Source of the DNA: Hydrogenophaga sp.
GTDB lineage: Bacteria > Pseudomonadota > Gammaproteobacteria > Burkholderiales > Burkholderiaceae_C
Direction: 5' to 3'
DNA: 64,000 bases
Assembly (NCBI GenBank): GCA_030653975.1
Contig: JAURYH010000029.1
Location: 62,001-126,000 of the forward strand
Positions 4,764-23,147 of the stretch are shown piece by piece (within the stretch, counting starts at the first letter, position 1; every line of letters starts with the position of its first letter). Made by a program: the position numbers and the translations under genes. Below the pieces are notes generated by a model that saw only the letters and a list, made by a program, of their open reading frames with translations, was not told the DNA's origin and did no database searches.

Positions 4764-5629
4764 CCATCCGCATCCCGCCAATCCAGTGTCTGCTGACGTT
4801 TGAAGCGCTGGCCCGCCTGCGCAGCGTGACGCAGACCAGCGAGGAGCTGTGTGTCACGCCCAGCGCGGTGAGCCACCGCATCAAGCAGCTGGAGCAGATC
4901 CTCGGCACCAAGCTGTTTGGCCGGGCCGATTTTTCGCTCACCACCGAAGGCAGCGAATACCTGGCGCATGTGCGAGAGGGTCTGGCGATCCTGCAGAAAT
5001 TTCCCAGCAACACCGTCACGCCCGGGCGGCGCAAGCTGCGCCTGGCGGTCACGCCCACGTTTGCGCGCTCCATCCTGCTGCCGCGCCTGAAGCAGTTCAG
5101 CGAGGCCTACCCGGAGATCGACCTGACGCTGCAGGTCAGCATCCCGCTGCTGGACGTGGTGGCCGAAGACGCCGACCTGATGATCCGTTTCGGCACCGGC
5201 CGCTACGCCGACGTGGAACACGTCTGCCTGATGAAGGACGACGTCACGCCGCTGGCCTCACCGGCGTTTGCGCGCGAGCACGGTCCGTTCGACGCCCCCG
5301 AGGACCTGGAAGGTGTTCCCCTGTTGCGCAGCCCGCTGGAGCCCTGGCGCACCTGGTTCGCCGCGCACGATCTGGACTGGCCCGAGCCGGTGGACGGTTC
5401 CCAGTTCAACGACATCGGCCTCATGTGCGACGGCGCCGCCGCCGGCATGGGCGTGGCGCTGGTGCGCATCAAGCTGGCCACGCCCTGGCTGGAGCACGGC
5501 ACGCTGGTGCCGCTGTACGAACGCCACGTGCCCAGCCCGCACGCGCACTACCTGTGCTGGCGCACCGGCACCATGGACCGCTGGGAGTGCGTGGCGTTTG
5601 CCGAGTGGCTCAAGAAGAGCCTGAGCTGA
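4760..5629 (+). CDS. LysR-family transcriptional regulator (GcvA-like)
   Basis: The product is 289 aa. The N-terminal winged HTH (about 5-65, with LRSVTQTSEELCVTPSAVSH and IKQLEQILGTKLFGR) is of the GcvA/AmpR subgroup. A periplasmic-binding-protein-like effector domain occupies about 90-285. Coupling to purU through an ATGA overlap is unusual, since LysR genes are more often divergent from their targets, and suggests a target in one-carbon or glycine metabolism. That is an inference from GcvA relatives and the neighbour. It ends flush with the convergent hsp20 gene, with no base between the stop codons. Confidence 0.88.
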   Translation: MTIRIPPIQCLLTFEALARLRSVTQTSEELCVTPSAVSHRIKQLEQILGTKLFGRADFSLTTEGSEYLAHVREGLAILQKFPSNTVTPGRRKLRLAVTPTFARSILLPRLKQFSEAYPEIDLTLQVSIPLLDVVAEDADLMIRFGTGRYADVEHVCLMKDDVTPLASPAFAREHGPFDAPEDLEGVPLLRSPLEPWRTWFAAHDLDWPEPVDGSQFNDIGLMCDGAAAGMGVALVRIKLATPWLEHGTLVPLYERHVPSPHAHYLCWRTGTMDRWECVAFAEWLKKSLS

Positions 5630-6058
5630 TCACTCGATATTCAAGCGCTGGCCTGCGAGGGCCACCTTCTTGGGCAAGGTCAGCGTCAGCACCCCGTTTT
5701 CGTACTTCGCCTTGGCGCGCTCGTTGTCGATGTCGGTCGCCAGCTGGAGGCTGCGGGACACCGCGCCGTAGTAGCGCTCGGTGCGCAGCACCTTCTCGTC
5801 CTGGCTCTGGCTGTCCTCCTGCTGGATCTCGGCGCGCAAGGTCACCACACCGCCTTCCACGGTGACGTGAATGTCTTCCTTGGCCACACCCGGCACCTCG
5901 GCCACCACGGTGTAGACCGACGGGGTTTCCTTCACATCGATCTTGATCTGGGACGGTGACGGCAAGGAATCGCCGTGCAGGGGACGGACATAAAAACCCG
6001 GTGCGACGTCCTTGAAGAAGTCGTCGAACAAACCGGAACGGGCGATCAGATGGTTCAT
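5630..6058 (-). CDS. Small heat-shock protein, Hsp20/alpha-crystallin family
   Basis: The product is 142 aa, starting at MNHLIARSGLFDDFF behind AAAGGAGCA. The alpha-crystallin domain spans about 40-140, beginning with IKIDVKETPSVYTVVAEVPG and ending with the KYENGVLTLTLPK block that includes the conserved G-x-L. As an ATP-independent holdase it would bind unfolding cytosolic proteins. The C-terminal I-x-I tail is reduced to RLNIE. A sigma-32-like promoter lies about 75-100 bp upstream (separate entry). The gene is monocistronic, convergent with the LysR gene and divergent from the FAD-oxidase gene. Confidence 0.92.
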   Translation of the reverse strand: MNHLIARSGLFDDFFKDVAPGFYVRPLHGDSLPSPSQIKIDVKETPSVYTVVAEVPGVAKEDIHVTVEGGVVTLRAEIQQEDSQSQDEKVLRTERYYGAVSRSLQLATDIDNERAKAKYENGVLTLTLPKKVALAGQRLNIE

Positions 6059-7810: not shown

Positions 7811-10800
7811 ATGAGTGCATCCCCCCCCGAATCCGGCAACGGCGCCGTGGCCGAGACCGGCCGCGGGCCCCGGTCGGCACGCGAGCTCGAGTTGCTCCTG
7901 GAGATCGAGGCACTGCGAAGCGAAAACCAGCATCTGCGCCAGTTTTATGCACGGCACCTCAGCACGCCCCAGGATCTGCCCGACGGGCAGCCCGGCCTGC
8001 CACTGCCGCTGCACCCCCCAGGACACACCCTGCGCGGGTCGGACGGGCCCCGCACGGCCCAGCTGGAATACGAAGCCTTGTTCGCCGCCCTGGCCAGTGC
8101 GTTCCCGATCGGCATCTTCCGCACCGACGCCACCGGCGTGCTCACCCATGTGGACGAATCCCTGCAACAGATCTTTGGTCTGCAAGCGCAGGACTTTCCC
8201 AACTTCGGCTGGCTCAAACGCGTGCACCCGGATGACCTGGAGAGGGTCCGGAACGACTGGATGACCAGCGTTCTGCACGGCGACGCCCGCAGCGTGGAGC
8301 TGCGTCTCCTGCGCCCCGGAGCGGGACTCGTGCACGTGCTGGTGCGCAACACACCGATGTTCGACGACGGTGGGCGGATCACGGGACAGCTCGGCTTCGT
8401 GCAGGACATCACGCCGCTGCGCGAACTGCAGGCCGACGCGCGGATCAAGGCCGAATTCAACCGGCAGATCATCGCCAGCAGCCCGGACTGCACCAAGGTG
8501 CTGGATCTCGACGGCCGCGTGGTGCAGATGACCGCCCAGGGTTGCCGGCTGGTCGAAGTGGACGACTTCGAGCAGGTGCGTGGCAGCGACTGGACGCAGT
8601 GGTGGACCAGCGAGAGCGCCGTGCTGGCCCGCCAGGCCGTGACCAGCGCTGCCCGGGGCGAAAACTCGCGCTTCATGGCCTTCGGCCTGACCTTCAAGCA
8701 GACCCCCAAGTGGTGGGACACCATGGTCTCGCCGATCAACGACGAGCATGGCCAGCCCGTGATGCTGCTGGTGGTCTCGCGCGACATCACCGAGCAGCAC
8801 CAGCAGCAGGAAGAAATCCGCCAGCTCAACGCCCGGCTGGAAAGCCGTGTGCGCGAACGCACGGACGAACTGGCCCAGGCCAACGCACGGCTGCGGCAGA
8901 CGCTCCAGGAAGCCCAGGCGCTCTACAACCAGGCGCCCTGTGGCTACTACTCGCTGGACCGGGATGGCACCATCCAGATGATCAACCAGACCGCCCTGAA
9001 CTGGCTGGGCCGCAAGCGCGCTGACGTGGTCGGCCACCTGAACTTCCGCGATCTGGTCGATCCCTCGCAACTGACCCAACAGAACGCGCGTCGGCTGCAG
9101 CTGGAAGCAAGCGGCCATCTCGAACCTGAAGAAGTGACACTGCGACTGCCAGACGGCCACCCCTTCGTCGGTCTGGCCTCCAGCACCGTCGTGACGGACG
9201 AACAGGGCCGATTTGTGCGCACCAACAGCACCCTGATCGACATCACCGAGCGCAAGGCCGGCGAAGACCAGGTGAAGCGTGCCAACCGGCAGCTTCAGGA
9301 GGCGCTGGAACGGTCGCAAGACCTGTACAACCAGGCGCCCTGCGGCTACCACTCGCTGGACATCAACGGCATCTATGTCTCGATCAACGACACGGAGTTG
9401 AAGTGGCTGGGCTATGCGCGTGAAGAAGTGGTCGGCATCAAGAGTTTCCGCGACTTCATCCTGCCCAGCCGGATCGAGCTCCTGGAAGACCGCCTGCAAC
9501 GCCTGATCCAGGACGGCGTGCTGGAAGGCGTGGAATACGAAATGCGCCGCCGTGATGGCACGGTCTTTCACGCGCTGCTCTCGTCCTCGGCCGTGCGCGA
9601 TGCCCGCGGCCAGTTTCTGCGCAGCAACACCACGGTGGTGGACATCACCCCGCGCAAGGCCGCCGAGATCGCCCTGCTCGAAAGCCAGCGCTTCCTGCAG
9701 ACCATCACCGACCACGTGCCCGGCCTGATCGCCTACCTGGACGCGATGCTGTGCCTGCGTTTTGTCAACGCCGAGCACCAGCGCGTGTTCGGCCTCGACC
9801 CCGACAAGATCCTCGGACTGCACATCAGCGAGTGCCTGCCCCCGACCGAATGGGTCGAGATCGGCCCCCGCCTGCAGGCCGCCCTGGACGGGCAGACCCA
9901 GACCTTCGAGTCCAGGCGCAGGACGGTCCACGGTGACCCTATCGTTGTCAGCACCACCTACCTGCCCGACATCCACGAAGGCCAGGTGCAGGGGGTGTTT
10001 GTACAGACCATCGACATCACGGACCACAAGCGCATCGAACAGCGCGTCAGCCAGCTCAATGACGAACTGGAGCAGCGCATCCGCGAACGCTCCCTGGAAT
10101 TGCTCGAGAGCGAGCAGCGCTTCCGCCTGATGGTGGACAACCTGCGGGAATACTGCATCTTTTTCCTGGATGCTCAAGGCCGCATCACCGACTGGACCGA
10201 CAGTGCCCAGCGCCTGGAGGGCTACTCACCGTCCGAGATGCTGGGACGGCACTACGCCGTGCTGTTCCGCGACCCCGATGCCGACGCGGCCCTGGCGAGC
10301 GCCAAGCTCATGCTGCGCCTGGCCGCCTCGCGCGGGCAGCACGAACGGCACAGCTGGAACGTGCGCAAGGATGGCTCGAAGTACTGGTCGCATTCGCTCC
10401 TGATCGCCCTGCGCGATGACGGTGGCGAGCTGCGCGGTTTTGCCAAGATCAACCGCGACATGACCGACGCCAAGCGGCTGGACGACCTGATGCGCAACAT
10501 CAACGACGAGCTGGAAAACCGGGTCGCCGAACGCACCGAGCAGCTGCTGGCCGCGAACAAGGACCTGGAGTCGTTCTCGTACTCGGTGTCACACGACCTG
10601 CGCTCCCCGCTGCGCCACATTTCCAGTTTTGTCAGCCTGCTGGAAGAACACCTGGGCGAAGGCAGCGACCACACCACGCAACGCTATCTGAATACCATCG
10701 GCAATTCGGCGCGCCACATGAGCCAGCTCATCGATGGGCTGCTCGCGTTTTCACATCTCGGGCGCTCGGCGGTCAAACTCACCGCGGTGGACTTCGCCAT

Positions 10801-13702: not shown

Positions 13703-16678
13703 TCAGTGGAGAGCCGGTCCCGCAAACAGGGCCACGTTGCCACCGGCCGCGGTGGTGTTGATGGTCAGGGTCTGCTCGGCGCAGAAGCGTTGCAGGTAGT
13801 TCGGTCCACCCGCCTTCGGACCGGTGCCGGAGAGGCCTTCGCCGCCGAAGGGCTGCACACCCACCACGGCGCCGATCATGTTGCGGTTCACGTAGACGTT
13901 GCCCACGCGCGCCGCCGTGGCCAGCGCCTGGGCGCGGCTGTCGATGCGGGTCTGTATGCCCAGCGTGAGGCCATAGCCCAGCGCGTTGATCTGGCGGATC
14001 ACGTCCGTCGGGTCGCCGCCCCAGCGCACCACCTGCAGCACCGGGCCGAAGATTTCGGCCTTCACATCGGCAATGGCGCCCACCTCGAACATCTGCGGCG
14101 GGATCAGGTTGGGCAGCGTGGTGGCCGGCTCGGCCGCGGGCAACAGCGGTTTGGCTTCGGCATGCAGGCGCTGCAGGTGGCGGCCGATGCCGTCAAACGC
14201 TTCGGCGTCGATCACCGGGCCCAGGTCGGTCGCCAGCTCGGCCGGTTGGCCGGCCACCAGTTCCTTCGCCGCACCCTGGATCATGGCGATCACGTGGTCG
14301 GCAATGCCTTCGTGCAGGCAGAGCAGGCGCAGCGCCGAACAACGCTGACCCGCGCTGCGGAAGGCACTCTGCACCACCGCGTCGGCCACCTGCTCGGGCA
14401 GGGCCGTGCTGTCCACCAGCATGGCGTTGATGCCGCCGGTCTCGGCGATCAGCGGCACGATGGCGCCGTCCTTCGCGGCCAGCGCGCGCTGGATGATCTT
14501 GGCCACCTGCGTCGAGCCGGTGAACACCACACCGGCGATGCCCGGCTGTGCCACCAGCGACGCACCCACGGTCTCGCCCGGGCCGTGCAGCAGCTGCAGG
14601 GCCTTGGCCGGCACGCCGGCGGCGTGCAGCAGCTTCACCGCTTCGAGCGCCACCGCCGGGGTCTGCTCGGCGGGTTTGGCCAGCACGGTGTTGCCGGTGG
14701 CCAGCGCCGCGGCCACCTGACCCATGAAGATGGCCAGCGGGAAGTTCCAGGGGCTGATGCAGACCCACGCGCCCCGGCCTTCCAACCGCAGCGTGTTGCT
14801 CTCGCCGGTGGGGCCAGGCAGGATTTGCGGCGCCATCACGCGCTCGGCATCGTTGGCATAAAAGCGCAGGAAGTCCACCGCCTCGCGCACCTCGGACACG
14901 GCGTCGCCCCAGGTCTTGTGCGCCTCTTTCACCAGCAGGGCGCAGAAGCGCGGCAGCTGCTGTTGCAAGGCGTCGGCAGCGCGCCTCAGCGTGGCGGCGC
15001 GCTCGGCCACCGGCGTGTGGTTCCAGCCGGCGAAGGCGGCCACGGCTTGGGCGCACGCGGCTTCGGTCTCGGCGGTGCTGGCCTCTGGAACCGACGGCAC
15101 CAGCGTACTGGCCAGCGCGGCCAGCAGCGGTTCGCGCATCGAGGCCACTGCGAGGTCCAGGCCCTGGCTGTTGGCGCGCCTGGCACCGTACAGCTCGGCC
15201 GGCAGCGGCAGCGAAGGCTGGGGCTCCAGGCGCAGCGGGGAGATCAGCAGCTCGTCCATGCCCACCGACTCGTCGGCCAGCTGGTGCACAAAGGACGAGT
15301 TGGCGCCGTTCTCCAGCAGGCGGCGCACCAGATAAGCCAGCAGGTCGCGGTGCGCGCCCACCGGGGCGTACACGCGGCAGGCCACCAGCGGGTTCTTCAG
15401 CACCTCGCGGTAGATGCCTTCGCCCATGCCGTGCAGGCGCTGCAGTTCAAACGGCACACCATGGCGCGAGGCCATCTGGAGGATGGCGGAAATGGTCCCG
15501 GCGTTGTGCGTGGCGAACTGCGGAAAGATCGCGTCGGGCGCGTCCAGCAGCGCACGGGCGCAGGCCAGGTAACTCACATCGGTGTGGTGCTTGTGGGTGA
15601 ACACCGGGTAGGTGGCTAAGCCCAGCTCCTGCGCGCGCTTGATCTCGGCGTCCCAGTAGGCGCCCTTGACCAGGCGGCACATGAACCGGATCTTGTACTG
15701 CCGGGCCAGTGCGGCCACGTGTTCGATCAACTCGACGGCGCGGGTCTGGTAGGCCTGCATCGCCAGGCCCAGGCCGGCCCATTGCGGGCAGTGTTCGGCC
15801 ACCAGCTGCGCCAGCGCCTCGAACACGTCGAGCGAGAGCTCCAGCCGGTCCACCTCCTCGGCGTCGATGGTGAGGTTGAGGTTGGCCTCGGCGGCCGCGC
15901 GGCACAGCGTCCACACGCGCGGCACCAGTTCTTCCATCACGCGCCCGTGCTGCACGTCTTCGTAGCGCGGGTGCAGGGCGCTGAGCTTGATGGAGATGCC
16001 GTCGTTGTGCGCGGGCGAACGTTTCGGGTCCGCGGTGCGCGCGATCGCGGCGATGGCGCTCTGGTAGCTCGCCAGGTAACGCAGCGCGTCGGCATCGGTG
16101 CGTGCGCCCTCACCCAGCATGTCGAAACTGAAACGCAGCTGGTCCAGCTTCTTGCGCGCCGAGGCGGCTTCCTTCATGCCTTCTTCGATCGTCTGGCCGA
16201 GCACGAACTGGCGGCCCAGCAATTGCACCGCGCGCAGCGTGGCCGCCACCACGGTCCTGGCGCCGAGCTTGACCATCAGGCCGGGCTGGTTGCCGGCTTC
16301 GGGCAGGAAGTGTTTGGACATCGCGATGGCGGAGGACGACAACCGCGCCAGCGTCGAATCGGCCGCGCCGTCGAAATCGGCACGCCCCAACTGATCCGCC
16401 GTGAGCGCGATGGCGGTTTCGGCATCGGGCACACGCAGCAGGGCCTCGGCCAGGCGCATCAGGGCCAGGCCCTCGGCGCTGGAGATCGGGTATTCCCTGA
16501 GCAGGCTTTCCATGGCCCAGAACGGCGGCGGGTTCTCGCGCACGGCGCGCACCCAGGGCGCGGCCACGGTGGCGGCGGCGGCCCAGTCCAGCGCACCCTG
16601 CAGCGCGGCCAGGCGCTGGGCGACGATGGTGGTCTCAGGCCGGTAGGGGAAGGGCAGGCGGTCGGTGGTGCGGGGCAT
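13703..16678 (-). CDS. putA: Bifunctional proline dehydrogenase / delta-1-pyrroline-5-carboxylate dehydrogenase
   Basis: The product is 991 aa, starting at MPRTTDRLPFPYRP after CTCCGGAGA. The proline dehydrogenase barrel covers about 60-450 (FMCRLVKGAYWD; YAPVGAHRDLLAYLVRRLLE). The P5C dehydrogenase domain covers about 500-970 (WNFPLAIFMGQVAAALATGN; the ETGG motif; catalytic Cys in AGQRCSALR). It oxidises proline to glutamate using FAD and NAD+. It lacks the N-terminal ribbon-helix-helix DNA-binding domain of E. coli PutA, so it is the short, non-autoregulating type. Control is expected from the divergent Lrp-family gene 105 bp away, with three shared boxes between them. Confidence 0.95.
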   Translation of the reverse strand: MPRTTDRLPFPYRPETTIVAQRLAALQGALDWAAAATVAAPWVRAVRENPPPFWAMESLLREYPISSAEGLALMRLAEALLRVPDAETAIALTADQLGRADFDGAADSTLARLSSSAIAMSKHFLPEAGNQPGLMVKLGARTVVAATLRAVQLLGRQFVLGQTIEEGMKEAASARKKLDQLRFSFDMLGEGARTDADALRYLASYQSAIAAIARTADPKRSPAHNDGISIKLSALHPRYEDVQHGRVMEELVPRVWTLCRAAAEANLNLTIDAEEVDRLELSLDVFEALAQLVAEHCPQWAGLGLAMQAYQTRAVELIEHVAALARQYKIRFMCRLVKGAYWDAEIKRAQELGLATYPVFTHKHHTDVSYLACARALLDAPDAIFPQFATHNAGTISAILQMASRHGVPFELQRLHGMGEGIYREVLKNPLVACRVYAPVGAHRDLLAYLVRRLLENGANSSFVHQLADESVGMDELLISPLRLEPQPSLPLPAELYGARRANSQGLDLAVASMREPLLAALASTLVPSVPEASTAETEAACAQAVAAFAGWNHTPVAERAATLRRAADALQQQLPRFCALLVKEAHKTWGDAVSEVREAVDFLRFYANDAERVMAPQILPGPTGESNTLRLEGRGAWVCISPWNFPLAIFMGQVAAALATGNTVLAKPAEQTPAVALEAVKLLHAAGVPAKALQLLHGPGETVGASLVAQPGIAGVVFTGSTQVAKIIQRALAAKDGAIVPLIAETGGINAMLVDSTALPEQVADAVVQSAFRSAGQRCSALRLLCLHEGIADHVIAMIQGAAKELVAGQPAELATDLGPVIDAEAFDGIGRHLQRLHAEAKPLLPAAEPATTLPNLIPPQMFEVGAIADVKAEIFGPVLQVVRWGGDPTDVIRQINALGYGLTLGIQTRIDSRAQALATAARVGNVYVNRNMIGAVVGVQPFGGEGLSGTGPKAGGPNYLQRFCAEQTLTINTTAAGGNVALFAGPALH

Positions 16679-16703
16679 GGAAATCTCCGGAGAGTCACAA
16701 GGT

Positions 16704-16780
16704 TGGTGAATTCCGTGATGATGCCGGCCCATATGGTGAATTTATGACTGTTTTTTACCGTTTTACCGGATAATTCACCA
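16704..16780. promoter_or_regulatory. Three TGGTGAATT boxes: candidate PutR/Lrp operator between putA and its regulator
   Basis: The 105-bp divergent intergenic region holds TGGTGAATT at 16704-16712 and again at 16734-16742 (exactly 30 bp apart, about three helical turns), plus its inverted copy AATTCACCA at 16772-16780, four bases before the lrp-family start codon. Multiple helically phased half-sites are typical of Lrp/AsnC octamer binding. I infer that the downstream regulator binds here to activate putA in response to proline and to control itself. Confidence 0.65.
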
Positions 16781-16783
16781 CCC

Positions 16784-17257
16784 ATGACCGAAACTACCCA
16801 CGAACTCGACCGCATCGACCTGCGCATCCTGAAGGTGCTGCAGGAAGACGGCCGCATCGCCAACCTGAAGCTGGCCGAAGCCGTGGCGCTTTCGCCCACC
16901 GCCGTGCTGGCGCGCACCCAACGGCTGCAGCGCGACGGCTACATCCTGGGCTTTGAAGCGCGGCTGAACCCGCTCAAGCTCGGCCGCGGAATGATGGTGT
17001 TCGTCGAGGTGCTGCTGGACCGCACCACGCCCAACGTCTTCAATGAGTTCAAGGCCGCGGTGCAGGTGCGCGACGAGATCATGGAATGCCACATGGTGGC
17101 CGGCGGCTTCGACTACCTGCTCAAGACCCGCATGGCCGACATGGTCGCCTACCGCGACTTCGCCGGCAGCGTGCTCTGGCAACTGCCCGGCGTGCGCGAG
17201 ACGCGAACCTACGCGGTGATGGAAGAGGTCAAGAACAGCAGCCGGCTGCCGCTGTGA
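16784..17257 (+). CDS. Lrp/AsnC-family transcriptional regulator, probable proline-responsive PutR
   Basis: The product is 157 aa. The N-terminal HTH (about 8-65: LDRIDLRILKVLQEDGRIAN; ALSPTAVLARTQRLQRDGYI) is followed by a RAM/AsnC ligand domain (about 75-150: CHMVAGGFDYLLKTRMADMV). It is divergent from putA, whose product has no DNA-binding domain, and the shared intergenic region carries three matching boxes. That is the arrangement of putR/putA activators in other proteobacteria. The specific proline role is therefore inferred from context and not from a ligand motif. Confidence 0.88.
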   Translation: MTETTHELDRIDLRILKVLQEDGRIANLKLAEAVALSPTAVLARTQRLQRDGYILGFEARLNPLKLGRGMMVFVEVLLDRTTPNVFNEFKAAVQVRDEIMECHMVAGGFDYLLKTRMADMVAYRDFAGSVLWQLPGVRETRTYAVMEEVKNSSRLPL

Positions 17258-17315: not shown

Positions 17316-17873
17316 ATGTCGAAACCCCTCGTCACCGTTCTTTCCGCCACCCTGCTCCTGGGTTCGGGTGCTGCACTGGCCCAGACCACCCGCCCCGGCC
17401 TGTGGGACATCCAGCACAAGATGGGGGGCGACCCGGAAATGGACCGGGCGATGGCCGAGATGCAGAAGCAGCTCGCGGCCATGCCACCGGCGCAGCGCAA
17501 GCAGATGGAAGCCATGCTGGGCCAGCAGGGCGTGAGCATGGCACCCGGTGCGAAAGGCGGCATGGCCCTGAAGATCTGCATCACACCGGAAATGGCGGCG
17601 CGCCAGGAAATGCCCAGCCAGACCGAGGGCGACTGCACCACCACCATCCACTCGCGCAGCGCCAGCATGCTGAAGATGAGTTACGTCTGCAAGAACCCGC
17701 CGTCGTCCGGCGAAGGCACCTACACCTTCAGCGGTGACACCGCCTACACCATGAAAATGGTCATGAAAACGACCCGCCAGGGCAAGCCCGCAGCCATGAC
17801 CATGGAAGGCCAGGGCAAATGGCTGTCGTCGGACTGCGGCACCGTCAAGCCGATGGCGCCGCCCAAGCGCTGA
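17316..17873 (+). CDS. Exported DUF3617 family protein
   Basis: The product is 185 aa, beginning with a Sec signal peptide (SKPLVTVLSATLLLGSGAALA, cleavage after ALA-Q near residue 23). The mature part starts with the family hallmark RPGLWDI, contains the paired cysteines KICITPEMAAR and GDCTTT, and ends in a beta-rich segment. DUF3617 proteins are small periplasmic proteins of unknown function in proteobacteria. The gene stands alone after the Lrp-family gene and converges on the ABC-phosphatase fusion. I do not see a regulatory element of its own. Confidence 0.85.
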   Translation: MSKPLVTVLSATLLLGSGAALAQTTRPGLWDIQHKMGGDPEMDRAMAEMQKQLAAMPPAQRKQMEAMLGQQGVSMAPGAKGGMALKICITPEMAARQEMPSQTEGDCTTTIHSRSASMLKMSYVCKNPPSSGEGTYTFSGDTAYTMKMVMKTTRQGKPAAMTMEGQGKWLSSDCGTVKPMAPPKR

Positions 17874-17929: not shown

Positions 17930-19474
17930 TCAGAGCAGCCGTCGCATCAGATCGTCTTCGAATTGCTGCAGGAAAGCCTCCTGCACCTCGGTCTGCACGT
18001 AGGCCGGGTCGATGCGGCGCAGGCGTTCGATGGCGGTGGCCGCACTCAGGCCGCCATCGCGCACCAGCCAGGCCGCCAACACCAGCCCTGTGCGACCCAG
18101 CCCGGCCAGGCAATGCACGGCCAGCACCTCGCCCGCCTGCAGCAGGCGCTGCATGCGCACGAGCAGCATCTGCATCTGCCCGGTGGACGGGGCTTCCCGG
18201 TCAAAGATCGGCAGGTGCGTGTTGGCCAGGCCGTGTATGCGCAGCAGGTCCTGTGGCAGGTCCCGCTCGGTCAGGGTGATGAGGTGGGTGACGCCCACCG
18301 CCCCCAGCAGGTCGAGGTCGTATTCGATCGGAGCCACCACGCCGGGCTGCGGACAACCCGCCAGCACACCCGGCACGATCCAGCGAAAGCGCCGGGGCCC
18401 CTGTCCGCCACTGAGGACGGCCTGTCCCACCATGGAGGCCAGCTCCACTCCCGCGGGCAAGGTCGGCGGCAGCGCGGCAAGACGACGCACCGGCTCCGCA
18501 GGCGGGTTGACCATGGCGCGCTCCGTGACAACGGGTGGCGCCATCGCCTCTGGCATGGCCGCCTGGGAGGCGCGGGCCTCCGGCGTCGGTTCGGGCTGCT
18601 GCTGGGCGGCCTCTTCCCGCGAAGCCGCCACGGCGGCCAGCGCCGCAGGGGGCAGCGGGGCCGGTGGCACCGCGTCGGCGTCCAGATCTTCCGCACGCGC
18701 ATCGGGCGACGACAGATCCAGGCTGCCGCTGCGAAGGAACTGTTCAACCCATTCGTTGGCCGGATGATCGAAAAACCGCTCCGTGGGCTGGTGCGCCAGC
18801 ACCCGCCCGCCACCGAGCAGTACCACCGAGTCGGCCAACAGGCGTGCCTGCTGCTGGTTGTGCAAGGTCACCAGCAGCTTCAGCCCCGTGCCCACATAGC
18901 GCAGCCAGTCCAGCAGACTGGCGCTTTCACGAGCATCCAGCCCGAAGGTGGGTTCGTCCACCAGGAGCATCTCGGGGCCTGCCGCCGCCAAGGCCAGCAC
19001 ACGCACACGCCGCTGCTGCGAGGATGGCAATTCCATCAATGGCTGGTCCAACGACCCCGCCAGATCCACCGCCTGGTAGCGTTCCAGGCACTCCTGTGCC
19101 CAGACACGCCATTGCACACCACTGCGATGCCCGTCTGCGGGCTGCGCCTCCCGCAGCACCTCGAACACGGTGCGCGCCGGGCTGCGAACGTGCTGGGCGA
19201 CCAGCTGGGGGCGATGTCCCGGCTGCAGCGCACGTCCCCGGAGCCAGGCATGGCCCCAACTGCGGTGCACGGTGTGGCCATCGAACTGCCCCGCCAGACT
19301 GCGCAGCAGGCTGGACTTGCCGGTTTTGACCGGCCCCATCAGCACATCGATCCCCGTCTGCGCCAGCGCCAGATCGCAATCGGCCAGGATCACCCGGGAC
19401 CCGAAGGCGAGGCCAAAACCCTGCAGGCACAGACCGGCGTCATGCAGCGGCTGCCCCGGTGAGTCCGACGCCAT
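17930..19474 (-). CDS. ABC-type ATPase fused to a dual-specificity/tyrosine phosphatase
   Basis: The product is 514 aa from MASDSPGQPL. Residues 10-230 are an ABC nucleotide-binding domain: Walker A GPVKTGKSS (47-55), Walker B LLVDEP (D173, E174), and H-loop H205 (LVTLHNQ). The signature motif is degenerate, LPSSQQRR in place of LSGGQ. Residues about 250-335 are a Pro/Ala/Glu-rich linker. Residues 345-514 are a cysteine phosphatase with possible general acid D425 (LPIFDRE) and the P-loop HCLAGLGRTG (C455, R461; HCX5R intact). There is no membrane segment and no permease gene nearby, so it is unlikely to be a transporter. An 8-bp gap separates it from the upstream Roadblock-like gene, so the two are co-transcribed. 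The function is unknown; nucleotide-controlled protein dephosphorylation is a reasonable guess. Confidence 0.82.
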   Translation of the reverse strand: MASDSPGQPLHDAGLCLQGFGLAFGSRVILADCDLALAQTGIDVLMGPVKTGKSSLLRSLAGQFDGHTVHRSWGHAWLRGRALQPGHRPQLVAQHVRSPARTVFEVLREAQPADGHRSGVQWRVWAQECLERYQAVDLAGSLDQPLMELPSSQQRRVRVLALAAAGPEMLLVDEPTFGLDARESASLLDWLRYVGTGLKLLVTLHNQQQARLLADSVVLLGGGRVLAHQPTERFFDHPANEWVEQFLRSGSLDLSSPDARAEDLDADAVPPAPLPPAALAAVAASREEAAQQQPEPTPEARASQAAMPEAMAPPVVTERAMVNPPAEPVRRLAALPPTLPAGVELASMVGQAVLSGGQGPRRFRWIVPGVLAGCPQPGVVAPIEYDLDLLGAVGVTHLITLTERDLPQDLLRIHGLANTHLPIFDREAPSTGQMQMLLVRMQRLLQAGEVLAVHCLAGLGRTGLVLAAWLVRDGGLSAATAIERLRRIDPAYVQTEVQEAFLQQFEDDLMRRLL

Positions 19475-20767: not shown

Positions 20768-21811
20768 ATGGACATCACCCAACTGCTCGCTTTCAGCGTC
20801 AAGAACAAGGCATCCGATCTTCACCTCTCGGCAGGGCTCCCACCCATGATACGGGTGCACGGCGACGTGCGCCGCATCAACGTCGAGCCGCTGGACCACA
20901 AGATGGTGCACAGCATGGTGTACGACATCATGAACGACAGCCAGCGCAAGCAGTACGAGGAGTTCCTGGAGTGCGACTTCTCGTTCGAGATCGAAGGCCT
21001 GTCGCGTTTTCGCGTCAATGCCTTCAACCACAACCGCGGTGCGGGTGCGGTGTTCCGGACCATTCCCAGCAAGATCCTGACGCTGGAACAGCTCAACGCA
21101 CCCAAGATCTTTGGCGACCTGGCCTTGCGCCCGCGCGGCCTGGTTCTGGTGACCGGTCCCACCGGCTCGGGCAAGTCCACCACGCTCGCGGGCATGGTCA
21201 ACCACCTCAACGAAACCGAGTACGGCCACATCCTGACGGTGGAAGACCCGGTGGAATTCGTGCACGAGTCCAAGAAATGCCTGATCAACCAGCGCGAAGT
21301 GGGCCCCCACACCCTGAGCTTCGCCAACGCCCTGCGCTCAGCCCTGCGCGAAGACCCGGACGCCATTCTGGTGGGCGAGATGCGCGACCTGGAAACCATT
21401 CGCCTGGCCATGACGGCGGCCGAGACCGGTCACCTGGTGTTCGGCACGCTGCACACCTCGAGTGCGGCCAAGACCATCGACCGGATCATCGACGTGTTCC
21501 CGGCGGAAGAAAAAGACATGGTGCGCGCCATGCTGTCGGAATCGCTGGTGGCGGTGATCTCGCAGACGCTGTGCAAGCTCAAGGACGGCAGCGGCCGCGT
21601 GGCGGCGCACGAGATCATGCTGGGCACCAGCGCCATCCGCAACCTGATCCGCGAAGCCAAGGTGGCCCAGATGTATTCGGCCATCCAGACCGGCAGCGGC
21701 GTGGGCATGCAGACACTGGACCAGAACCTGTCCGAACTGGTCAAGCGCCACGTCATCAGCCCGGCCGAAGCGCGAAGCAAGGCCAAGATCCCGGAAAACT
21801 TCCCAGGCTGA
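20768..21811 (+). CDS. pilT: Type IV pilus retraction ATPase PilT
   Basis: The product is 347 aa, standard PilT length. An N-terminal PAS-like domain (KASDLHLSAGLPPMIRVHG) is followed by the secretion ATPase core: Walker A GPTGSGKSTT, Asp box and Walker B in LREDPDAILVGEMRD, a His box (FGTLHTSSAAKTIDR), and the retraction motif AIRNLIRE near the C-terminus. It hexamerises at the pilus base and powers retraction. The start follows a weak purine-rich site (GGGACCCCGGG). pilU follows after a 199-bp gap that contains a dispersed repeat. Confidence 0.97.
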   Translation: MDITQLLAFSVKNKASDLHLSAGLPPMIRVHGDVRRINVEPLDHKMVHSMVYDIMNDSQRKQYEEFLECDFSFEIEGLSRFRVNAFNHNRGAGAVFRTIPSKILTLEQLNAPKIFGDLALRPRGLVLVTGPTGSGKSTTLAGMVNHLNETEYGHILTVEDPVEFVHESKKCLINQREVGPHTLSFANALRSALREDPDAILVGEMRDLETIRLAMTAAETGHLVFGTLHTSSAAKTIDRIIDVFPAEEKDMVRAMLSESLVAVISQTLCKLKDGSGRVAAHEIMLGTSAIRNLIREAKVAQMYSAIQTGSGVGMQTLDQNLSELVKRHVISPAEARSKAKIPENFPG

Positions 21812-21884
21812 ATATGCTCTCCCCCGTTGCTTGCTCGCTGCGCCCCGGATTGCCGCGTCAAGCGGCAATACGCTCAGCCGCATA

Positions 21885-21936
21885 CCCCCAGGGGGCTTTG
21901 CTCCCGGCCCGGCAGAGCCGGTGCCGCCGCGTTCTG
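21885..21936 (+). repeat. Dispersed intergenic repeat, copy 1 (after pilT)
   Basis: A CCCCCA/GGGGG palindrome is followed by CTTTGCTCCCGGCCCGGC, then AGCCGGTGCCGCCGCGTTCTG. The same layout occurs at 23176-23230 and 31578-31630. Each copy starts within about 75 bp of a stop codon. The GGCCCGGC...GCCGG segment can fold into a small stem. A CTC(T)CCGG motif also recurs about 30 bp after each copy. Confidence 0.7.
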
Positions 21937-22010
21937 CGCTGGCGTTTCCGCGTCCAACATCTCTCGCTCTCCGGAGCAAGGATCTCGAATTTCTAACAAG
22001 GTAACTCTTC

Positions 22011-23147
22011 ATGGAACGCGACCAGGCATCCAAGTTCATCAACGACCTGCTCAAGCTCATGTTGAGCCGGGCCGGCAGCGACCTGTTCATCACGGCCGAC
22101 TTTCCACCCGCGATCAAGGTGGATGGCAAGGTCGTGAAGGTGTCGCCGCAGCCGCTCAACGCGGTGCACACCCTGTCCCTGGCGCGCGCCATCATGAACG
22201 ACAAGCAGGCGGCCGAGTTCGAGCGCACCAAGGAATGCAACTTCGCCATTTCGCCACCCGCCATCGGTCGTTTCCGCGTCAGCGCCTTCATCCAGCAGGG
22301 CAAGGTGGGCATGGTGATGCGGACCATCCCGGCGGTGCTGCCCACTATCGACAAGCTCGGTCTGCCCCAGGTGATGAAGGACGTCAGCCTGTCCAAGCGC
22401 GGCCTGTGCATCCTCGTAGGCGCCACGGGTTCGGGCAAGTCCACCTCGCTGGCCGCCATGGTGGACTGGCGCAACGAGAACACCTTCGGCCACATCATCA
22501 CCATCGAAGACCCGATCGAGTTCGTGCACCCGCACAAGAACTGCGTGGTCACGCAGCGCGAAGTGGGGCTGGACACCGACACCTGGGATGCCGCCCTCAA
22601 AAACACGCTTCGCCAGGCCCCCGACGTGATCCTCATGGGCGAAATCCGCTCGCGCGAGACCATGGAACACGCGATCCAGTTCTCGGAAACCGGTCACCTG
22701 TGCATGGCCACCCTGCACGCCAACAGCGCCAACCAGGCGCTGGACCGGATCATCAACTTTTTCCCCGAAGAGCGTCGCACTCAGCTGCTGATGGACCTGT
22801 CGCTCAACCTGCGCGCCATGATCTCGCAGCGCCTGGTGCCGCGCCAGGACAACAAGGGCCGTTTTGCCGCGGTGGAGGTTCTGCTCAACTCACCACTGAT
22901 TTCCGACCTGATCTTCAAGGGCGATGTCGCCGAGATCAAGGAGATCATGAAAAAAAGCAACCAGATGGGCATGCAGACCTTCGATCAGGCCCTGTTCAAC
23001 GCTTTCGAGGCCAACCTCATCACACTCGAAGACGCCCTGCGCAACGCCGACTCGCTCAACGACCTGCGGCTGCAGATCAAACTCAACAGCCAGCGCGCCA
23101 AGACGGTGGACCTGGCCGCGGGGACCGAGCACATGATGATTGTGTAG
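22011..23147 (+). CDS. pilU: Type IV pilus twitching-motility ATPase PilU
   Basis: The product is 378 aa. It is a PilT paralogue with Walker A GATGSGKSTS, Walker B LRQAPDVILMGEIRS and His box CMATLHANSANQALDR. GATGSGKSTSLAAMVDWRN and the C-terminal DLAAGTEHMM tail are typical of PilU and not PilT. It is an accessory retraction motor that works with PilT. The upstream 199 bp separate it from pilT and carry a repeat element, so it may have its own promoter even though the two genes form a conserved pair. Confidence 0.95.
   Translation: MERDQASKFINDLLKLMLSRAGSDLFITADFPPAIKVDGKVVKVSPQPLNAVHTLSLARAIMNDKQAAEFERTKECNFAISPPAIGRFRVSAFIQQGKVGMVMRTIPAVLPTIDKLGLPQVMKDVSLSKRGLCILVGATGSGKSTSLAAMVDWRNENTFGHIITIEDPIEFVHPHKNCVVTQREVGLDTDTWDAALKNTLRQAPDVILMGEIRSRETMEHAIQFSETGHLCMATLHANSANQALDRIINFFPEERRTQLLMDLSLNLRAMISQRLVPRQDNKGRFAAVEVLLNSPLISDLIFKGDVAEIKEIMKKSNQMGMQTFDQALFNAFEANLITLEDALRNADSLNDLRLQIKLNSQRAKTVDLAAGTEHMMIV

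Follow-up and report, generated by a model that had tools for sequence, protein, structure and literature searches.

A Roadblock-fold protein paired with an ABC ATPase-phosphatase fusion in Hydrogenophaga: a candidate GTPase-free signalling unit

The 64,000-nucleotide stretch of Hydrogenophaga sp. DNA analysed here, which we call the window, carries a conserved pair of genes on its minus strand. P0001 (17930-19474, stop codon included) encodes an ABC ATPase and a DSP-type phosphatase in one chain, and P0002 (19483-19890), which lies 8 nt upstream of it, encodes a 135-amino-acid protein with a predicted Roadblock/LC7 fold. The initial annotation of this DNA had recognised the fusion, and its architecture stands, but P0001 was read there as a lone protein and the partner gene was missed. 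With moderate confidence, we suggest that the two proteins together make up a cytosolic signalling unit that works without a GTPase and has an ATP-gated phosphatase as its output. What we propose beyond a conserved pair of a roadblock-fold protein and an ABC-phosphatase, including the biochemistry and the substrate of the unit, we infer from the comparisons that follow.

P0001 is a single unbroken frame of 514 amino acids in which Pfam recognises both of the domains that had been proposed. The ABC ATPase domain occupies approximately residues 15-250 (18725-19432, minus strand, as for all parts of the gene), as judged from Pfam, NCBIfam and a motif table, and the DSP/PTP phosphatase domain approximately residues 356-510 (17945-18409), as judged from Pfam and PDB matches. 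Between them lies the expected Pro/Ala-rich linker (approximately residues 256-355; 18410-18709), which is variable in length and under weak constraint. Pfam cut-offs are exceeded by ABC_tran (residues 32-176, 36.5 bits against a cut-off of 25), PTP-SAK (360-500, 72.1 against 27) and DSPc (390-506, 37.0 against 33.5), and ABC_tran and DSP matches were both found in all 18 members of a diverse P0001 alignment. A sequencing error that joined two genes, the objection raised at the outset, can be rejected because single-frame fusions recur at other loci, in other families and across many genomes.

The motifs are also present as first described. In the ABC domain these are the Walker A (GPVKTGKSS, residues 47-55), the Walker B (LLVDEPT, residues 170-176) and a degenerate signature (LPSSQQRR, residues 149-156), together with Q94 of the Q-loop and H205 of the H-loop. 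In the phosphatase, an HCLAGLGRTG loop holds C455 and R461, so that HCX5R is complete, and we take D425 to be the likely general acid, a role assigned from PTP chemistry. The protein was said to be soluble, and a 19-residue Kyte-Doolittle scan of its whole length agrees: it found no transmembrane-looking hydrophobic segment, and the highest mean, 1.67, starts at residue 450 inside the phosphatase core. P0001 passes the Pfam cut-off for ABC_tran and keeps Walker A, Q-loop, Walker B and H-loop, but it lacks an LSGGQ-type signature, and it has neither the transmembrane domain nor the constant adjoining permease of an ABC transporter. Its phosphatase resembles DUSP23-type DSP/PTP enzymes, with PDB sequence matches to a bacterial DSP and to DUSP23 (2img, 4erc; over approximately residues 357-505, E ~2e-21) and the full HCX5R, and differs from them in being fused to an ABC ATPase. 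An AF2 model of P0001 built from 4 sequences had a mean pLDDT of 36.7 and was set aside.

The motif table covers 30 P0001 members, namely the window and 29 loci, with three copies dropped and L048 missing. K53, S54, Q94, D173, E174 and H205 are invariant in 30/30, and R155 is retained in 28 of the 30. None of these aligned members has an intact SGG signature: S is found in 7, the first G in 0 and the second G in 3. C455 and R461 are retained in all 29 members whose sequence reaches them, and D425 in 29/30, the exception being L047; the fusion of genome G066 has Y at the position of the likely general acid. Compared with four close orthologs (L076-L079), dN/dS of P0001 was 0.00-0.13 in the phosphatase domain, 0.16-0.33 in the ABC domain and 0.33-0.63 in the linker, and compared with the farther L080 (P0001 dS 1.3-1.6) it was 0.18, 0.29 and 0.34, respectively. 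P0002 is 91-99% identical to the same four orthologs, with a dN/dS of 0.05-0.10, and of 0.20 against L080. The vertical neighbours gave 0.02-0.05 (pilT), 0.05-0.09 (pilU) and 0.15-0.27 (yggS). The phosphatase and P0002 are thus constrained to about the same degree as pilU, and the ABC domain roughly to the lesser degree seen in yggS.

Matches to P0001 were found in 10 of 60 genomes of the genus and 17 of 200 of the family (one of the latter, G143, a generic ABC match). At E <= 1e-60 the fusion profile matched 5 of 250 genomes of the order, and three of the five belong to the same family as the window. Among five loci compared, Hydrogenophaga taeniospiralis (86% identity) is the only named species with the whole of P0001, and two MAGs are at 87-91%. 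No P0001 match was seen in a plasmid collection at E <= 1e-15. P0002 was likewise matched in 17/200 family genomes, weakly in G006 (E 9e-4), and its profile matched 37 of 398 genomes of the phylum.

We assign P0002 to the Roadblock/LC7 fold from a structure model of moderate confidence and a profile comparison with two controls. The sequence itself matches no Pfam family at E <= 1, Robl_LC7 included, and no PDB sequence at E <= 10. The P0002 profile did give PDB matches, which we rejected as chance-like; they include no roadblock protein and comprise designed armadillo repeats (best E 8e-5), lectins and a sorting nexin. The model (pLDDT 70, pTM 0.67) has a predicted helix-strand-strand-helix-helix-strand-strand-strand-helix topology, and the PDB structure closest to it is the Roadblock/LC7 protein 3kye (E 8e-6, TM ~0.6). 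At E <= 0.001 the model matched 92 PDB structures, and the 50 of these that were listed consist of MglB, MglC, other roadblock proteins and chains of the Ragulator, EGO and Rag/Gtr assemblies, which hold roadblock-type domains. Profile-profile comparison of P0002 with the Robl_LC7 proteins of related loci gave a probability of 89.9 (E 1.7e-6), as against 0.7 and 0.1 for two unrelated control profiles. Of the known systems, the MglA/MglB pairs of Myxococcus and Thermus are called to mind by the likeness of the P0002 model to MglB (1j3w, 3t1r); P0002 differs from MglB in having no Pfam Robl_LC7 match and in its usual neighbour, which is an ABC-DSP protein.

The best evidence that P0001 and P0002 work together is that the pair is kept though the gene order flips. 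P0002 adjoins the fusion on the same strand, at a distance of at most 136 nt, in 23 of 24 loci, lying upstream of it in 10 and downstream in 13. Over the 32 places where we found the fusion (the window and 31 loci, some of them close kin, with the stretches of L044, L085 and L142 short), a P0002 gene accompanies it in 31. The same 10 of the 60 genus genomes hold homologs of both genes (Fisher p 1.3e-11, with kinship ignored), two of them, G200 and G228, with a fusion cut by the contig end. In the 200 family genomes, both genes occur in 15, P0001 alone in G066 and P0002 alone in G121, a count that again ignores kinship and from which the generic ABC match of G143 and the weak P0002 match of G006 were dropped. 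P0002 without a fusion alongside is found in G121 and as second copies in G018 and G126.

The genes around the pair, which we name by reading, look ordinary and chromosomal. On one side, a PutA-like gene (minus strand) is divergent from an Lrp/AsnC-like regulator (16784-17257, plus), an ordinary arrangement that spans 13703-17257, and a small secreted-looking protein (17316-17873, plus) lies between the regulator and P0001; on the other, upstream of the pair, what we take to be a YggS-like gene lies from 20001 onward on the minus strand and is followed by pilT and pilU (20768-23147, plus). GC3 of P0001 and P0002 (0.82 and 0.88) is like that of yggS (0.82), pilT (0.87) and pilU (0.89), so there is no compositional sign of a recent foreign origin of the pair. 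Rfam and tRNA scans of the window returned nothing. The pilT, pilU and YggS-like neighbours are common to the window-like loci L029/L076, L030/L078 and L032/L077; in L031/L079 the YggS-like gene is at the contig end, and the remaining loci have other neighbours. As pilT and pilU are confined to window-like copies, we reject a general link between them and the pair, to which they are probably not functionally tied.

Other neighbourhoods hold several genes that recur. An ArsC-like gene lies near the pair in L038, L040, L041, L042, L043 and L045; five of these six loci also have a gene for an HtrA-like protease, and L041, L042, L043 and L045 have acyltransferase and amidohydrolase genes (Pfam matches were obtained for the L041 copies, including the ArsC-like gene at 5472-5888). 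These six loci are kin in the P0001 tree, and shared descent is therefore inseparable from function. BPD_transp_1 permease and ABC ATPase genes and Yip1-like membrane genes adjoin the pair, or are separated from it by a few genes, in the related loci L042 (7675-10496) and L045 (8201-10973). Genes of a ferredoxin-globin cluster occur near the pair in L044, L080, L081 and L082-L084 (Pfam matches for L081, 4269-5198, and L084, 2223-3332), and at L158 there are a CxxCxxCC protein and a ferredoxin-reductase-globin (8040-9629), the latter with FAD and NAD domains; ferredoxin-globin proteins near roadblock/ABC-DSP genes may provide a redox or oxygen input. Other neighbours turned up a single time: L036 has a release-factor GTPase gene beside it, and close to the lone P0002 of L107 there are genes for an Mla-like permease and ATPase.

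Some relatives of the pair sit in clusters with a small GTPase. A GTPase of the profile that we call A3 lies near the pair in 7 of the 32 fusion places (L048, L082-L084, L147, L157 and L158). At L157, the genes for a small protein, the GTPase (PF03029), the ABC-DSP fusion, a P0002-like protein and a Robl_LC7 protein follow one another in that order on one strand, and L158 includes a receiver-like protein with an HTH, where the HTH scores under the Pfam cut-off and the receiver part is assigned by reading. In the A3 alignment, read by eye, the G5 motif of the linked GTPases is D-x-R in 10 of 10 rows and DAR in 7 of them, and the G4 lysine is absent in five of the six rows from ABC-DSP-linked clusters. 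As described in the accessible part of PMC4316618 (Wuichet and Sogaard-Andersen 2014), Group 3 MglA proteins are almost exclusive to beta- and gamma-Proteobacteria, have a deviant G4 and share the DAR G5 motif with Group 2; their gene partners are a receiver-like/winged-helix protein and either one or two MglB proteins. The seven fusion places, with their D-x-R G5, mostly lysine-free G4 GTPases and roadblock proteins, resemble this group, although the likeness is one of motifs judged by eye. The pair of the window differs in having no GTPase at all in its unit, and the word phosphatase is absent from the accessible text of that paper. The ABC-DSP/P0002 pair would be an undescribed companion of Group 3 MglA-type systems. 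Actinobacterial conservons (CvnA-D; the Mfp system) offer a looser parallel in their operon of small GTPase, roadblock protein and small partner; however, according to the accessible part of PMC13343842, their core is a histidine kinase, CvnA, they have no ABC-phosphatase fusion, and they belong to another phylum.

The window genome, which is 99.8% complete, has no GTPase of this profile at E <= 1e-10 and no Robl_LC7 match, such as 17 of the 29 genomes searched had at E <= 0.001. Of the 29 rows in the P0001 tree, 23 have no GTPase in the stretch read; 21 of these make up a single clade (support 100/99), and the other two, L047 and L049, group with the GTPase-linked L082-L084. The P0002 tree does not bring the GTPase-free rows together in a single clade. 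The midpoint rooting of the P0001 tree leaves the direction of change to inference.

Roadblock proteins commonly dimerise and bind NTPases, and they partner small GTPases in settings as far apart as polarity control in Myxococcus and the Ragulator complex. We suggest that P0001 could be the NTPase partner of P0002: since no GTPase of the kind was found, P0002 most likely binds the ABC domain, which in the window lineage would be the only NTPase of the unit. P0002, presumably as a homodimer like its MglB-type relatives, would bind the ABC domain, which in turn would bind ATP without making the normal LSGGQ contact. Binding or turnover of ATP would then alter the assembly of the two proteins, and the altered assembly could open or close the fused, cysteine-dependent DSP-type phosphatase by way of the flexible linker, the predicted output being removal of phosphate from a protein or small-molecule target. 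Because the residues that bind ATP and polarise water are kept and the dimer-closing contact is lost, the role of ATP may be that of a binding switch; alternatively, P0002 may supply the contact. In the more specific version of this idea, which we put forward only tentatively, P0002 would supply or control the lost LSGGQ contact in trans, and roadblock-dependent ATP turnover on P0001 would switch the phosphatase. If true, P0002 and P0001 would correspond to MglAB but need no GTPase, an ABC ATPase standing in for the Ras-like one. The unit may be derived from the MglA-like GTPase/roadblock clusters that hold the same pair, or be a reduced sister of them, and the window lineage would have lost the GTPase if the direction that we favour is correct.

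A protein target is not the only one that can be envisaged, and P0001 could be a metabolite or nucleotide phosphatase whose ABC domain is only a sensor of ATP levels or a scaffold, with no protein phosphorylation involved. PTP-fold enzymes can use non-protein substrates, P0001 has weak Pfam matches to PTP-NADK and PTPlike_phytase (each below its own cut-off), and by eye no kinase gene was recognised beside the window pair. The roadblock partner and the relatives in GTPase clusters point instead to signalling, as does the company of a Ser/Thr kinase, an FHA protein and a PP2C phosphatase that a P0002 relative keeps on two Ruegeria plasmids; we consider a metabolite phosphatase unlikely.

The distribution of the GTPase bears on whether the pair serves a small GTPase encoded elsewhere, with P0002 as its GAP or adaptor and P0001 as its effector. 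GTPases of this profile are found in 8 of the 15 family genomes that carry the pair, as opposed to 17 of the 185 others (p 7e-5, kinship ignored), and could therefore act in trans in some hosts; the gene is next to the pair only in G086. However, at E <= 1e-10 there is none in the 7 remaining carriers, that is, the window genome and 6 others, and the same holds for 7 of the 10 carriers in the genus (the window among them), four of these genomes being at least 96% complete. A distant GTPase partner appears to us rather improbable.

The case for an ABC transporter, in which P0001 would be the ATPase subunit and its phosphatase would dephosphorylate the cargo or regulate transport, starts from the ABC domain. 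Importer ATPases such as PstB, CysA and MalK match it over its full length (the best NCBIfam ABC model covers residues 20-247), and its top NCBIfam matches are to importer ATPases such as PstB (69.4 bits, well short of the PstB cut-off of 343). In L042, moreover, the gene immediately upstream of the fusion, and on its strand, encodes a BPD_transp_1 permease (Pfam on L042 only), and in L045 a gene of the L042 permease cluster is two genes upstream. Yet in both loci an ABC ATPase gene lies beside the permease, of the TOBE_2 type in L042, and none of the other neighbourhoods that we clustered has this permease cluster. P0001 differs from importer ATPases in the family-wide loss of the SGG signature, in the lack of a recurrent permease and in the phosphatase at its C-terminus, and its recurrent partner is a soluble roadblock protein. 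We regard a transporter role as decidedly improbable. An anti-phage or conflict module is the least probable of all, very much a long shot: the patchy distribution (10/60 and 17/200 genomes), the match of P0001 to the Pfam 'polymorphic toxin system' phosphatase Tc-R-P (67.5 bits) and, in a PADLOC search of 9 proteins, the weak matches of P0001 to mad3 (23.7 bits) and of the Ruegeria dynamins to LeoA/LeoBC are consistent with one, but the mad3 match is limited to residues 144-222 of the ABC domain, the pair is under purifying selection, and no defence or mobile gene was recognised among the neighbour genes searched with Pfam.

Returning to the GTPase-free signalling unit that we propose, we can ask how new it is. 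The initial annotation knew of no described transporter or signalling system with this architecture. In the open-access literature, searched by titles and the openings of abstracts, neither the ABC-DSP fusion nor its pairing with a roadblock protein is described. The statement that it belongs to no known signalling system was nevertheless too strong, because P0001 goes together with a roadblock protein, P0002, and some of its relatives belong to MglA-like GTPase/roadblock clusters. It is better described as an extension, GTPase-free and so far undescribed, of a known class, the Group 3 MglA-like systems as they appear in the accessible part of PMC4316618. Neither domain is new, nor is the roadblock fold; what is undescribed, as far as we have searched, is their combination, the partnership and the GTPase-free state. 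That same part of PMC4316618 cites a prediction of 2000 by Koonin and Aravind that roadblock proteins are general regulators of NTPases, and states that as of 2014 no orphan MglB had been characterised experimentally. We believe that P0001 and P0002 are a natural test of the roadblock-NTPase idea, with a highly conserved roadblock protein, an ABC-ATPase-phosphatase as its usual partner and no detectable cognate GTPase in the genome.

P0002 relatives also occur without the fusion. Sixteen further P0002-like neighbourhoods were read (L146-L161), and the ABC-DSP fusion is present in four of them (L146, L147, L157 and L158). A metallophosphatase related to that of L150 is found in nine, all fusion-free, with the match in L151 cut by the end of the stretch (Pfam Metallophos matches were obtained for L150 and L148). 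L156 has a dynamin-like gene and a weak P0002 match (E ~1e-7), and L159 and L161 have neither fusion nor metallophosphatase relative nor dynamin-like gene. A small GTPase related to that of L084 is found in nine of the 16 (L147, L150-L155, L157 and L158). We suggest that phosphatases, be they DSP, metallophosphatase or PP2C, are recurrent neighbours of P0002-family roadblock genes.

The metallophosphatases are themselves fusions of approximately 500-530 amino acids (L150:4752-6347, L148:6810-8309, L149:4583-6151 and relatives), whose C-terminal part is a calcineurin-like phosphatase and whose N-terminal half is unannotated, and their genes adjoin roadblock and mostly GTPase genes. A kinase reading of the N-terminal half, based on a pattern of invariant K, D, N and DDD, found no support in PDB or Pfam and is at best tentative. 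In the plasmid collection, five Ruegeria plasmids hold P0002 matches at 35-37% identity. On the two of them that were read, the P0002 relative lies among four dynamin-family genes, which are followed by the Ser/Thr kinase, the FHA protein and the PP2C phosphatase; the run, which also includes two hypothetical proteins, spans L105:5898-19162 on a plasmid of Ruegeria sp. SCSIO 43209 and is likewise present in L106, and it is possibly a roadblock-dynamin-phosphorylation system.
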